Source: Flexibacter flexilis DSM 6793
GTDB taxonomy: Bacteria; Bacteroidota; Bacteroidia; Cytophagales; Flexibacteraceae
Direction: 5' to 3'
Length of the DNA stretch: 64,000 nt
NCBI RefSeq assembly: GCF_900112255.1
Contig: NZ_FOLE01000011.1
Span: 62,001 to 126,000, forward strand
The notes under the pieces: generated by a model
Told to the model about the DNA's origin: nothing
The model's database searches: none
What the model saw: the letters and a program-made list of their open reading frames with translations, nothing else
Made by a program: the position numbers and the translations under genes
Shown: positions 56,633-61,622 of the stretch, one piece after another
How positions within the stretch are numbered: the stretch's first letter is position 1
How the letters are laid out: every line of letters begins with the position of its first letter

Positions 56633-57175
56633 ATGACAACTATCACCAACCTCAATTGGCAGCCTGTGCATTTGGAAAATGAGCTTGTAAGGCTTGTTCC
56701 GCTGCAATCTGGGCATTTTGAAGCGTTATTTGCGGTAGCTTCCGACCCGCTAATTTGGGAGCAACACCCCGCCTCGAACCGCTACCAAAGAGAAGTGTTC
56801 GAAGATTTTTTTGCAAAAGCAATTGAAGAAGGAAAGGCTTTTTTGATTGTGGAAAAAGCTACAAATCAAGTGGTTGGCTCTTCGCGTTATTACGAATACG
56901 ACCCAGCCGAAAAAAGTATTTGCATTGGTTATACGTTTTTGGGGCGTGCGTATTGGGGCGGAAATTTTAATAAATCCATCAAAAAACTCATGATTGATTA
57001 TGCGTTTGAGTTGGTGGAAAAAGTAGTGTTTCATATTGGCGCAGACAACAAGCGTTCGCAAATCGCGACCATGCGCATCGGGGCAAAGAAAACCAAAGAA
57101 ATGGAAATGGTTTTGACGGGAAAACCCGTGCTTCATGTGGAATTGGTGATTGAGAAAAAAGATTGGCAGGCATAA
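56633..57175 (+). CDS. GNAT family N-acetyltransferase
   Basis: The 180-residue product resembles GNAT enzymes of the RimJ/RimL-like branch: an N-terminal LENELVRLVPLQSGHFEALF, a beta strand pair with VVGSSRYYEYDPAEKSICIGYTF and an acetyl-CoA site near GADNKRSQIATMRIGAKK. The substrate is unknown. It is 24 nt after ksgA and likely cotranscribed with it, which hints at a ribosome-related target, but this is only inference. Confidence 0.85.
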   Translation: MTTITNLNWQPVHLENELVRLVPLQSGHFEALFAVASDPLIWEQHPASNRYQREVFEDFFAKAIEEGKAFLIVEKATNQVVGSSRYYEYDPAEKSICIGYTFLGRAYWGGNFNKSIKKLMIDYAFELVEKVVFHIGADNKRSQIATMRIGAKKTKEMEMVLTGKPVLHVELVIEKKDWQA

Positions 57176-57181
57176 AAACAG

Positions 57182-57224
57182 AAACGCCAAAGTTGCTATA
57201 AGTCAGCTACTTTGGCGTTTTTGC
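57182..57224. terminator. Bidirectional terminator between GNAT and the carrier-like gene
   Basis: AAACGCCAAAGT (57182-57193) pairs perfectly with ACTTTGGCGTTT (57209-57220), with GC/GC inside. T-run follows on the plus strand. Confidence 0.9.
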
Positions 57225-57248: not shown

Positions 57249-57509
57249 TTATGCGGCTGCATAAGCTACACTTACGTTAAGGTGTTGGCGTACACACGAA
57301 ACGGCATCTCCTACGGTTTGGATAGATTGTACTTCTCTGTCGTCGAGATTGATGTCAAACTCTGTTTCCAAGTACAACATCATTTCCATTTGTTCCATGA
57401 TGTTGAGACCCAATTCATTTAATCTTTTATTTTTTTTGATAGCAGTGCTTGGAATCAAAAAATGTTTTTTAAAAATACGTTCGATGCGAGTTTGAACTGA
57501 ACTTTTCAT
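57249..57509 (-). CDS. Acyl carrier-like protein without the phosphopantetheine serine
   Basis: The 86-residue product has the acyl carrier fold: helix 1 (SSVQTRIERIFKKHF), then RLNELGLNIMEQMEMM, then YLETEFDINLDD and TVGDAVSCV as in ACP helices 2 and 3. Where ACP has DSL, with the serine that carries the cofactor, it reads N36-I37-M38. No other serine sits nearby. It therefore cannot be loaded in the usual way. It may have a structural or regulatory role, for example binding partner enzymes. The start is an ATG with a perfect AGGAGG 5 nt upstream, unusual in this phylum. Confidence 0.85.
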   Translation of the reverse strand: MKSSVQTRIERIFKKHFLIPSTAIKKNKRLNELGLNIMEQMEMMLYLETEFDINLDDREVQSIQTVGDAVSCVRQHLNVSVAYAAA

Positions 57510-57514
57510 AACAA

Positions 57515-57520
57515 CCTCCT
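57515..57520 (-). promoter_or_regulatory. Perfect Shine-Dalgarno sequence for the carrier-like gene
   Basis: On the minus strand AGGAGG is followed by 5 nt and ATG. Most genes in this window lack such a site, so it stands out. In Bacteroidota the anti-SD of 16S rRNA is mostly hidden. Confidence 0.8.
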
Positions 57521-57826: not shown

Positions 57827-58696
57827 TTACTGAAAATCTATGAAATTTTGGGGGTTGATGGGATTGCCATTGTACCAAACTTCCAAGTGCAAATGTGAGC
57901 CAGTGGTAAGGGTTTCGCCAGAGTTGCCTACCAGCGCGATAAGTTCGCCAGCACGCACGGCATCGCCTACTTTTCGGGTAATAGAGGCATTGTGTTTGTA
58001 GATGGAAATCAGGTTGTTACGGTGCTGAATAGCGATTACGTTGCCTGTGTCTTGTGTCCAAGAAGCCACAATAACCGTACCGTCGGCGATGGCTTTTACG
58101 GGTGTGTTTTTGTCTGTTACGATGTCTGCGCCATAGTGGGCAATTTTGGTATCAAAGCCCGAGGAAACAAATCCGTTTACGGGTTTGAAGAAAAACATTC
58201 CGCCCAGTGCGTCGCTGTTGTTGCCAGTGGGCAAACCTTGCACATCGGCATTTTGTTCAAATTCCAAACGAAGTGCCTCTTCCACTGCCGAAATAGAATC
58301 CAGATTGGCGTGCGATTGGGCGGTAGGAGTAGGGGTTTTCTTTTCTTCGGCTGCCGAAAGTTTGCCCGAATTGCCTGCTATATCCCTGAAATTTTGAATG
58401 AGCGCATCGCGGCCTTGTAGTTCGGTTTCCAGCGAATCGAGCCGAGAGGCCAATAGCACTAACTTCTTCCGATTGACGGTTTCTTGGCTGCCCGCGTCGG
58501 TAAAAGCATTGCTCCAGCGGTTGCCCAACCAGAAACTCAGGGCAGATAAAATTATTACAACACTAACCACAAAAACGATTACTTTTGCATAGTTTAGACG
58601 TAAGGTTGTCTTCTCGGCGAAAGTTTCCTCGCTGCGTAATATGAGCGTGTAATGGTTCGTTAGCCAATTATATATAGTTGTTCTCCGACGTTTCAC
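57827..58696 (-). CDS. M23 family metallopeptidase (LytM type)
   Basis: M23 enzymes cut peptide cross-links in peptidoglycan or act as amidase activators. The GTG at 58696 gives 290 residues starting VKRRRTTIYNWLTNHYTLIL, a start seen in related Bacteroidota proteins; the longer frame to 58876 looks random. One membrane segment (about residues 37-60), a coiled coil (about 75-105), then the catalytic domain with HYGADIV and GSHLHLEVW (the HxH motif) follow. Both first and last zinc ligands are present, so it should be active. Confidence 0.88.
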   Translation of the reverse strand: MKRRRTTIYNWLTNHYTLILRSEETFAEKTTLRLNYAKVIVFVVSVVIILSALSFWLGNRWSNAFTDAGSQETVNRKKLVLLASRLDSLETELQGRDALIQNFRDIAGNSGKLSAAEEKKTPTPTAQSHANLDSISAVEEALRLEFEQNADVQGLPTGNNSDALGGMFFFKPVNGFVSSGFDTKIAHYGADIVTDKNTPVKAIADGTVIVASWTQDTGNVIAIQHRNNLISIYKHNASITRKVGDAVRAGELIALVGNSGETLTTGSHLHLEVWYNGNPINPQNFIDFQ

Positions 58697-58868
58697 GATA
58701 GCCAAATTAAAAAGTCTGTTACTGGAATGAGCCACAAAAGTAATGATTCTTTCATTGCCCAAAGGCCATAAAATCCAAAAAATGGCGGCGGTGGCAGTGG
58801 CTACAATGTTAGTTTCAAAATAAAAACAGGCGTTTGACCTCAAATATAGTCTTATTGTTGTGCAAAAA

Positions 58869-61622
58869 ATGATCAATAACCGATTCTCAAAAGATTCTTT
58901 GGTAATCAGAAAAATATTCGTGCTTGCTTTTTTGGGGCTTGTGGCGTGTTCGAGCGAAAAAAATACGCCTACCAGTCGCGCTTATCATAACGTACTGGCC
59001 AAATATAATGGCTATTTCTTGGCACGCGAAAAAACCAAAGAAGTAGAAAACAACATCGTCAAGGCACACAAAGAAAACTATAATAGGATTCTTGAAATTT
59101 ATCAGCCCATCAGCGCAGCCACCGAAACGAGCATTAAACCGCTTACCGAAGAAATCGTAAAGAAGGCCTCTATTCCCGTACAACGTCACAAATATAGCAA
59201 GTGGGTGGACGATAGTTATTTGCTCATCGGAAGAGCGCGTTATTACCAAGCCGACTGGGAAAATGCCACGACCACGTATCGTTATGTTTACGGCAAAGCC
59301 AAAGGCAAGGACGAAAAATCTTCTGCTCTTATTTGGTTGTTGCGTACTTATGTGAGTGCAGGCGAACCCAAAATGGCCAGCATTGCACGCAGTGTTTTGG
59401 AAAAAGAAGCCCCCACTTTTAGTAAGGCCAACACGCGCGATTATCACCTGACAATGGCGTTCTATCATTACAAGTTGCGCGAATATAAGGAAGTGGCCGA
59501 AAATCTCGATAAGGCTTTACCACTGATGCGTCGCGGTGAAGCACGTGCCCGTTTGTACTATGCACTTGGGCAGATTCGCCAAAAACAACACGCGGATTCG
59601 GCTGCTTATAAGTCGTTTAGAGCGGTTTTGAAAAATAATCCGTCTTACGAACTTTCGTTTTATACCAAACTGAATTTGGCGCAAGTAACATCTGTTTCGG
59701 ACGAAAAAGGCAAAAAACGCATTCGGAAGTATTTCAAAAAAATGCTCAAAGACGAAAAAAATGAAGAGTACCGCGACCGCGTGTATTACGAAATGGCTTC
59801 TTTTGAACTAAAACAAGGGAATGTACCCAAAGCGATTGAGTATTACCAAACTTCTTTGCGTCAAAAAACAACCAATCCGAACCAAAAAGCTTATTCTTAT
59901 TTGCGTTTGGGAGAAATTTTTTACGACAAATTGCACCGCTATCCGCAAGCCAAAGAATATTATGATAGCACGATTACCGCACCATTAGACACCAACGAAG
60001 AAAATTACGCGGCCATTCTCAAACGCCAAAAAGTGTTGGGCGATTTTGTGCGCGAATACACCATCGTACAGCGCGAAGACAGCTTGCAACGTTTGGCCGC
60101 CATGGATACGGCAACGCTTTACGCCACTATTGATAAAATGGTAGCGGGTGATATTGCTCGCGACAAAGAAGATGCACGCCGCAAAGAGCGTGAAGCCCGC
60201 AAAGCTGCTTCGGGCGGTGGCAATGGTTCGTCTATGTTTGACAATAAAAATGGCTTGGGATTCAATAGTAGTAGCGACGACGGCAATAGCGATACCAAAT
60301 GGGCGTTGAGCAATCCTGCCGCGATTAGTGCGGGGCGTGCGGCCTTCTTGCAAAAATGGGGAAATCGTCCGTTGCAAGATAATTGGCGACGCTCAAAGAA
60401 AGATTCTGCGCCAATGCAAGAGGAAAACAATCCGTCTGCCAACGCCACCGAAGAGCCTAAAGATTCTCCGACAGATACCGCCAATAAGTCTGAAAAAGCC
60501 ACCGAAAAAACAGACGATGGAAAAGGTAAAACTACTAAAGCCGCCGCCCCAGAACGCAATCGCTCGGCTTACCTAAAAGACATTCCGTTTACGGCGCAGG
60601 CTTTGGCTGCTTCCAACGAAAAGTTAAGACCAGCGTTGTATAATTTGGGTAAAATCTATCGCCAAAAACTCGAAGAACCCGACAACGCCGCCACGACGTT
60701 TGAACATTTTGTGGAGAAATTCTATGAAGATGAAAAAACGCCCGAAGTGCTGTATTTTCTTTATCTCATTTACAAAGAAAAAGGTATGGCTGAGAAACAG
60801 GAAGTTTGTAAACAAAAGCTGCTAAAGGATTTTCCTAAGTCGGATTACGCGGGCTTGTTGCGCAACCCTAATTATTTGGTGGAGAAAAAAGCCCAAGAAG
60901 CACAAGCCGAAAAGGATTATGCAGTTGCCTATGAGCTTTACGAACAAAACCGTATGGCCGAAGCCGAAATTGCTGTGAATAAGTTGCGTGATAACTATCC
61001 CGAAACGGTTATTATGGACAAAATAGTGTTGTTGCAAACGCTCATTGCGGGGCACACACTCGCGCCAAGCGATTATGTAACACGTATTAATGAGTTTATG
61101 AAAAATTACCCTAAATCTAAACTCATTCCTTTGGCGCAAGAAATGAATGCGGTGGCCGTGCGAGTGGCTTCAGGGCAGTCGGCAGTAACCAGTATTTCGG
61201 AGGCTACCAGCACAAGCAACGAACCAAGTACGAGTTTGTCGCCTTACAAATTGGATTTGGAAAAGCCGCATTATTTTTTGGTGATATTGCCTGTCGGGAA
61301 AATTCGGAACACGGAGGCTATGGAGAAAATCTCAGAATTTAACTCAATATACTACCCTGAGCGTACTTTCACCGTAAATGATATGTTGATTAACGACAAA
61401 TATTTTATGGTGCGTGTTTGGGATTTGCCGACCAAAATTCAGGCACTTAATTACTTGAAAAAACAGAAAAGTGAAAAAGGGGCACTCAGCGAAGATTATC
61501 CTAAATTGGAAAAACATTATTTGTTGATGACTGCCGACAATCTCAAGATTTTCTATAAATCCAAAAATATTAAAGAATACGAAGATTTCTTTAACAAACA
61601 TTATAACCTCAATTTTGAGTAA
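58869..61622 (+). CDS. SprE/PorW-like TPR lipoprotein of the type IX secretion system
   Basis: SprE (Flavobacterium) and PorW (Porphyromonas) are outer membrane lipoproteins needed for T9SS secretion and gliding. The product has 917 residues from the ATG at 58869; a GTG at 58860 would add three. It has a lipobox (LVACSS, near residue 29), then AYHNVLAKYNGYFLAREK and many TPR repeats (about residues 80-400), a disordered Ser/Lys/Glu-rich middle (about 405-560), more TPRs and a SPOR-like C-terminal domain (YFLVILPVGKIR near residue 800). The name rests on architecture and N-terminal pattern; exact orthology is not proven. Confidence 0.75.
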   Translation: MINNRFSKDSLVIRKIFVLAFLGLVACSSEKNTPTSRAYHNVLAKYNGYFLAREKTKEVENNIVKAHKENYNRILEIYQPISAATETSIKPLTEEIVKKASIPVQRHKYSKWVDDSYLLIGRARYYQADWENATTTYRYVYGKAKGKDEKSSALIWLLRTYVSAGEPKMASIARSVLEKEAPTFSKANTRDYHLTMAFYHYKLREYKEVAENLDKALPLMRRGEARARLYYALGQIRQKQHADSAAYKSFRAVLKNNPSYELSFYTKLNLAQVTSVSDEKGKKRIRKYFKKMLKDEKNEEYRDRVYYEMASFELKQGNVPKAIEYYQTSLRQKTTNPNQKAYSYLRLGEIFYDKLHRYPQAKEYYDSTITAPLDTNEENYAAILKRQKVLGDFVREYTIVQREDSLQRLAAMDTATLYATIDKMVAGDIARDKEDARRKEREARKAASGGGNGSSMFDNKNGLGFNSSSDDGNSDTKWALSNPAAISAGRAAFLQKWGNRPLQDNWRRSKKDSAPMQEENNPSANATEEPKDSPTDTANKSEKATEKTDDGKGKTTKAAAPERNRSAYLKDIPFTAQALAASNEKLRPALYNLGKIYRQKLEEPDNAATTFEHFVEKFYEDEKTPEVLYFLYLIYKEKGMAEKQEVCKQKLLKDFPKSDYAGLLRNPNYLVEKKAQEAQAEKDYAVAYELYEQNRMAEAEIAVNKLRDNYPETVIMDKIVLLQTLIAGHTLAPSDYVTRINEFMKNYPKSKLIPLAQEMNAVAVRVASGQSAVTSISEATSTSNEPSTSLSPYKLDLEKPHYFLVILPVGKIRNTEAMEKISEFNSIYYPERTFTVNDMLINDKYFMVRVWDLPTKIQALNYLKKQKSEKGALSEDYPKLEKHYLLMTADNLKIFYKSKNIKEYEDFFNKHYNLNFE

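Follow-up and report, generated by a model that had tools for sequence, protein, structure and literature searches.

The gene at 57249-57509 on the minus strand of the window, a 64,000-nucleotide stretch of the Flexibacter flexilis DSM 6793 genome, encodes a protein of 86 residues which resembles acyl carrier proteins (ACPs) but has no serine at the site of phosphopantetheine attachment. We tentatively favour the interpretation that this is a non-carrying ACP which has been retained for the sake of its protein-binding surface and which most likely assists an envelope exporter, or the regulator of such an exporter, as an accessory. A more specific version, which is possible but already more doubtful, is that ACPs of the clade to which the window protein belongs entered tripartite RND- and MFS-type efflux operons on several occasions, becoming a cytosolic subunit or gauge dedicated to the pump, that the serine was then dropped in most of them, and that the window protein is a free-standing member which serves its exporter in trans. 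The evidence comes from the clade, in which genes for exporters recur beside the ACP-like gene, and from the residues that have been kept around the lost carrier site.

Fold, carrier site and relatives

The open reading frame (ORF) is intact, and its product matches the family PF00550 (PP-binding) with 21.8 bits at a cut-off of 20.8. The NCBIfam ACP models match down to an E value of 2.8e-10, yet all 14 remain below their own cut-offs, with TIGR00517 scoring 38 against the required 70.45. A sequence search of the PDB returned ACPs (best E 3.7e-7). The AlphaFold2 model, built from nine input sequences, has four helices and a mean predicted local distance difference test score (pLDDT) of 89.3, and Foldseek found 39 PDB matches for it at E <= 0.001 with template modelling (TM) scores by query of 0.72-0.82. 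By title or chain name all but one of these are ACPs or complexes with an ACP; the exception, 8pk8_C, carries a title that mentions a human iron-sulfur assembly complex alone, and this complex presumably contains an ACP as well. The model thus predicts the ACP fold which the preliminary description of the gene had proposed.

The window protein shares the four-helix fold, the length, the acidic helix 2 and the Leu-Gly before the carrier motif with the AcpP-type ACPs of type II fatty-acid synthesis (PF00550, TIGR00517), but it reads N-I-M in place of D-S-L. The three residues Asn36, Ile37 and Met38 are in register with the motif, so that the ATC codon of Ile37 (57399-57401, minus strand) stands at the place of the phosphopantetheine serine, and residues 33-45 of the window protein contain no Ser, Thr or Cys. 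This bears out the earlier observation that the carrier serine is absent. A second difference lies at the end of helix 1, in His16-Phe17-Leu18 (57456-57464, minus strand), where the AcpP-type ACPs compared mostly have Leu-Gly at the place of His16-Phe17; His16 is invariant in the nine rows of the alignment A1 and Phe17 in the 13 rows of the alignment A2. At the default threshold PF00550 finds two matches in the same genome, a canonical AcpP-type protein (G000:C7) and a second D-S-L ACP (G000:C3), and there is one match to the ACPS family, of the phosphopantetheinyl transferase type. As carriers and a transferase are thus present elsewhere in the genome, the window protein is a paralogue. The second D-S-L ACP (in the region L072:4634-9389) is located between a gene for an extracytoplasmic function (ECF) sigma factor together with a 649-residue ORF, which has no Pfam match, and an asparagine-synthase-like gene.

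Relatives were sought in 59 genomes (58 relatives and the genome itself) and in 390 genomes of the order, and clear relatives were found. The 13-row alignment A2 gave 18 loci with at least 100 bits in the 390 genomes, and five more at 61-66 bits were included on the basis of the tree. This makes at least 23 loci in 390 Cytophagales genomes, a lower bound because matches weaker than E 1e-15 were left out. So far the clade appears to be confined to Cytophagales; among 345 genomes of the class and 345 of the phylum only the window's own locus passed E 1e-17, a threshold too strict for divergent members like those of G137 and G331 to pass. In a tree limited by its small number of columns, its long branches and a bootstrap that had not settled, the window protein falls into a clade of 22 rows (the distinct rows of the 23 loci) with a support of 99/96, separate from the AcpP-type ACPs. 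It also has the Phe at position 17 of helix 1, a residue found in the divergent G331 protein too, where it is preceded by Thr. The closest relative, from G004, is 50% identical.

The preliminary description had asked whether N-I-M is fixed among homologues. The motif itself is not, and what is common to all is the absence of the D-S-L carrier site. The Asp has been lost in 23 of the 23 clade loci, while the position of the serine is occupied by Ile (1), Gln (1), Pro (3), Lys (3) or Glu (5) in the 13 serine-free loci; eight loci read N-S-L or S-S-L and two, from G008 and G009, read T-S-P. Column 37 of A1 runs Ile, Gln, Pro, Lys, Lys, Lys, Pro, Ser, Ser over its nine rows. Relatives without the serine are present in ten other Cytophagales genomes, which makes the absence more than a chance event, and within the main clade the serine-free state covers three families of the order.

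The best explanation of this pattern is that the clade arose from phosphopantetheine ACPs, that the Asp was the first to be lost and that the Ser followed in most members. Loss of the serine appears to have happened at least twice and probably three times: one loss, in G331, falls within the serine-bearing f10 group (support 100/97), and the relationship between the main clade and g45 is unsettled in the tree, which leaves the count at this range. The T-S-P of G008 and G009 could be taken for an ancestral carrier site, but the two are nested among lysine-bearing relatives in the tree, so that their serine looks re-gained and this possibility was rejected. A recent loss or a sequencing slip was rejected as well because the loss is common to several genera and families. 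Serine-bearing homologues together with a recent loss had been named beforehand as the case that would speak against a retained non-carrier: serine-bearing sisters do exist, but the loss is old.

The residues around the site have been kept to a considerable extent. His16, Phe17, Glu39, Glu42, Glu48, Glu50, Phe51, Ile53, Ile63, Thr65 and Asp68 are invariant across the nine rows of A1, and in the stretch from Met38 to Asp52 (57354-57398, minus strand), which is mostly helix 2 (residues 37-51 in the model), Glu39 and Glu48 are kept in 23/23 clade loci and position 51 is Phe or Tyr in all 23 (Phe51 in the window protein); Glu50 is kept in 10/23. The frames are open in all 13 serine-free loci. Ratios of non-synonymous to synonymous substitution (dN/dS, NG86) of about 0.06-0.15 in four pairs show that the relatives are under purifying selection: 0.033/0.263 = 0.125 for the T-S-P pair G009-G008 of genus g3, 0.178/1.188 = 0.15 and 0.102/1.287 = 0.08 for two serine-free g45 pairs, and 0.035/0.634 for the serine-bearing pair G357-G378. 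For window-G004 and G002-G006 dS is saturated, and there is no ratio for the window gene itself. The spread over three families, the dN/dS of the relatives and the constancy of Glu39, Glu48 and the aromatic residue 51 support the earlier proposal that phosphopantetheine cannot be attached in the usual manner and that the protein is kept for another role.

Exporter genes beside the relatives

Genes of the OEP, HlyD or RND families were found by hidden Markov models (HMMs) within 1.5 kb of 14 of the 23 clade loci and of none of 51 distinct other ACP loci (59 loci counted, with 8 repeats). The Fisher p value of 1.8e-9 for this difference is overstated because the clade loci are related to each other; counted by lineage there are four positive groups, namely g3, g45, G319/G357/G378 and g28. 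The positive loci were among those used to build the HMMs, and as many of the control ACPs are AcpP orthologues, the control represents ACPs at large and not the rate expected for a solitary gene. Five further ACP loci (L075, L076, L085, L087 and L128), two of them cut by contig ends, were likewise negative for pump genes. The preliminary description had suggested, as an example, a decoy or partner for ACP-binding enzymes; this linkage points rather to exporters as partners.

The arrangement differs from group to group. In genus g3 the gene lies between OEP and HlyD of an OEP-HlyD-RND operon in five of five genomes (Pfam on the G002 locus); a TetR gene was called in three of these loci and precedes it there. 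The g45 genomes G061 and G137 each have two copies in two different RND operons, one with the order TetR-ACP-OEP-HlyD-RND (type A, 2 loci) and one with the order OEP-ACP-HlyD-RND (type B, 2 loci). A serine-bearing sister follows OEP-HlyD-RND in the type B operons of G319, G357 and G378 (3 loci), and another follows HlyD-MFS-OEP in G033 and G048 (2 loci). The linkage is therefore one to RND- and MFS-type efflux operons in which the place of the gene varies. The gene of the closest relative, from G004, also adjoins an exporter, as it stops 10 bp short of a gene for an ABC exporter.

Several other genes accompany these operons. A hotdog thioesterase-like (4HBT) gene precedes OEP in seven type B RND loci (L080:12592-12966, named by Pfam; L082 and L084, by BLAST; L226-L229, by eye), which hints that the substrate is an acyl compound or that acyl groups are sensed. 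An ORF of about 305 residues which by eye resembles NAD-dependent epimerases is found between HlyD and RND in the type B operons of G061 and G075 (L215:4897-5814 and L225:3916-4854). Divergently oriented to the g3 pump operon is a gene group (L065:42-5348, minus strand) containing two members of the FdtA family, a DegT aminotransferase gene and an arginase-family gene, and similar genes are present at the G010 and G006 loci. Finally, an ORF in G033 (L232:3405-3656, plus strand) directly precedes the TetR gene belonging to a type A pump and reads P-Y-R around the serine place, with Tyr at or next to it. It is weakly ACP-like (E 5e-5 with a custom HMM) and has no Pfam hit, and it was not counted as a clade member; possibly it is a further, much decayed one.

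Surroundings of the window gene

The window gene has a Shine-Dalgarno-like AGGAGG (57515-57520, minus strand) 5 nucleotides 5' of its ATG. Upstream, on the same strand, an ORF for an M23 peptidase occupies 57827-58876. On the other side an ORF for a GNAT-like acetyltransferase (named by eye) runs towards the ACP-like gene on the plus strand and ends at 57175. Between the two convergent genes lies a perfect 11-bp inverted repeat (57183-57193 and 57209-57219, spanning 57183-57219), which by its sequence looks like a terminator for both strands; a terminator scan with a loop limit of 8 did not return it, its loop being 15 nucleotides long. The converging GNAT-like ORF, the inverted repeat and the M23 ORF upstream give the ACP-like gene the appearance of a transcription unit of its own. 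By eye no fab gene adjoins it in the window, nor does a TetR gene.

Precedents and possible roles

In the mechanism proposed here, an ACP of the phosphopantetheine lineage would have lost the Asp and later the Ser of D-S-L while its binding surface stayed, and would dock on an envelope exporter or the regulator of that exporter, in the way AcpM is found on the RND transporter MmpL5. The solitary window protein would act likewise on an exporter whose gene lies in another part of the genome. On this reading gene linkage would reflect a physical or regulatory partnership, and the binding would need no phosphopantetheine. Exporters or the regulators of their operons are likely partners given the recurrence of the linkage; as no partner is indicated by the position of the window gene, the assignment for this protein rests on the clade.

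In Mycobacterium smegmatis AcpM sits on the cytosolic face of MmpL5, with contacts that include D40, E46, E52, D53, Y55 and D61, although the authors described AcpM as a fortuitous protein that had co-purified (PMC11633376). Here an ACP is associated with an exporter of the RND family; however, AcpM functions as a carrier in meromycolate synthesis, whereas in the clade the link to exporters is one of gene neighbourhood only and the serine is lost in most loci. If Ser41 of AcpM is the carrier serine, as we assume, E46, E52 and Y55 correspond to Glu42, Glu48 and Phe51 of the window protein, so that by register three contact positions fall on kept residues: those of E52 and Y55 are kept in 23/23 loci and that of E46 in 19/23.

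Other ACP partnerships show what such a protein may do. MukB is stimulated equally by apo- and holo-AcpP (PMC8602292), an example of an ACP as a protein-binding part in which the apo form is as good, although the same Escherichia coli AcpP also serves fatty-acid synthesis and the partner is unrelated to export. The interaction of E. coli IscS with AcpP is a non-metabolic partnership too, but it needs Ser36, Asp35 and Asp38 (PMC13343975), so that not every known ACP partner could be served by an ACP without the serine. IacP is a dedicated ACP tied to an export system, that of SPI-1 (PMC5279801), which is a type 3 secretion system and not an efflux pump. Searches of an open-licence PMC library, judged by their listings, returned no description of serine-free ACPs linked to efflux operons. 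ACP-fold proteins without a carrier site are a known kind, and inactive carrier domains occur in megasynthases. ACPs on transporters are also known already; it is the combination of a serine-free ACP with linkage to efflux operons that is new.

A number of observations weigh against an exporter accessory. The window gene is solitary, with no OEP, HlyD or RND gene within 1.5 kb, and the same is true of eight other clade loci (G004, G026, G033:C12, G048:C7, two in G125, G086 and G331), which makes nine of 23; G033:C12 and G048:C7 adjoin an LPG_synthase_TM/glycosyltransferase group. The window's genome has 12 RND genes, none orthologous to the two linked RND types (the best-scoring have 24% and 28% identity), and a pump of the g3 type was rejected as the partner for this reason. 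It does have an orthologue of the G004 ABC exporter (70%), but no ACP gene stands beside it, so that this candidate is not supported by position either. Nor is the protein required for such a pump: among the pump loci inspected, an ACP-like ORF is missing from 26 of 30 loci of type A and from 20 of 24 of type B. Four of each have one, the weak L232 ORF being among those of type A. These counts are not frequencies, since the pump genomes were picked in the knowledge of which ones bear an ACP; the g3 locus was known beforehand, and some loci are cut by contig ends. They refer to HlyD matches of at least 227 bits for type A (30 of 36 chosen genomes) and at least 228 bits for type B (24 of 33), with weaker matches, probably to other pumps, bringing the totals to 36 and 28. 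By eye, no shared change in the transmembrane 6-7 (TM6-7) region or the C-terminal end of the RND proteins tracks the ACP neighbour. The match to AcpM is partial, as its contact residue D40 falls on the lost Asp (Asn36 here) and so has no acidic counterpart in the window protein. Glu42, kept in 19/23 loci, is replaced by Ala in all four of the pump-linked loci of g45, and the acidic residues conserved in the clade are common to ACPs generally.

The main rival, a live one though on balance unlikely, is the decoy which the preliminary description had already suggested. As a permanent apo-ACP the protein would, when made, occupy ACP-binding enzymes such as glycerol-3-phosphate acyltransferase and lower lipid synthesis, perhaps alongside pumps under envelope stress. 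Apo-ACP is reported to inhibit this acyltransferase, and growth was suppressed by an obligate apo-ACP (PMC4736557). The retention of the acidic residues Glu39, Glu42 and Glu48 of helix 2 is consistent with such a brake, as is the presence of a canonical AcpP and an ACPS-type transferase match in the same genome. However, the Asp of the motif is lost throughout the clade, and a pure decoy does not predict a linkage to efflux genes with serine-bearing sisters in the same kind of operon.

A good deal less probable is a partnership with the neighbouring TetR-family regulator through which the protein would tune the transcription of the operon. A TetR gene is adjacent in the type A loci of G061 and G137 (named by similarity to the g3 TetR) and at the G086 (L079, by Pfam) and G125 (L077, by similarity to G086) loci, both of which lack a pump gene within 1.5 kb. 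Yet a similar TetR gene is also present in most of the type A loci that lack an ACP, none was called in the type B loci of G319, G357 and G378, and before OEP in the type B loci of G061 and G137 there is an ORF of similar size, of which that in G137 is weakly TetR-like (E 9e-6). The window gene, as described above, has no such neighbour.

That the protein is a degenerate, functionless copy of an ACP would agree with its solitary gene and with the variety of residues (I, Q, P, K, E, S) at the serine place, but open frames in every serine-free locus, the kept residues around the site and the low dN/dS values of G009-G008 and the serine-free g45 pairs make this very improbable. Least credible of all is that the protein is still active as a carrier, either through modification of some other residue or by non-covalent binding of acyl groups. 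Although three of the four g45 loci have flanking serines (S-E-S twice and N-E-S once, the fourth being S-E-T) and G033 and G048 have a serine before the site (S-P-M), the window protein has no Ser, Thr or Cys in residues 33-45.

ACPs are known hubs. If the proposed role as an exporter accessory is true, the dedicated ACP genes in efflux operons would show that the contact between ACP and exporter has been selected, and that it can be separated from acyl carrying, as the serine was lost while much of the binding face was retained. The clade would then be a natural test case for whether exporters read the state of lipid synthesis via an ACP, and for what an ACP without its arm can do.
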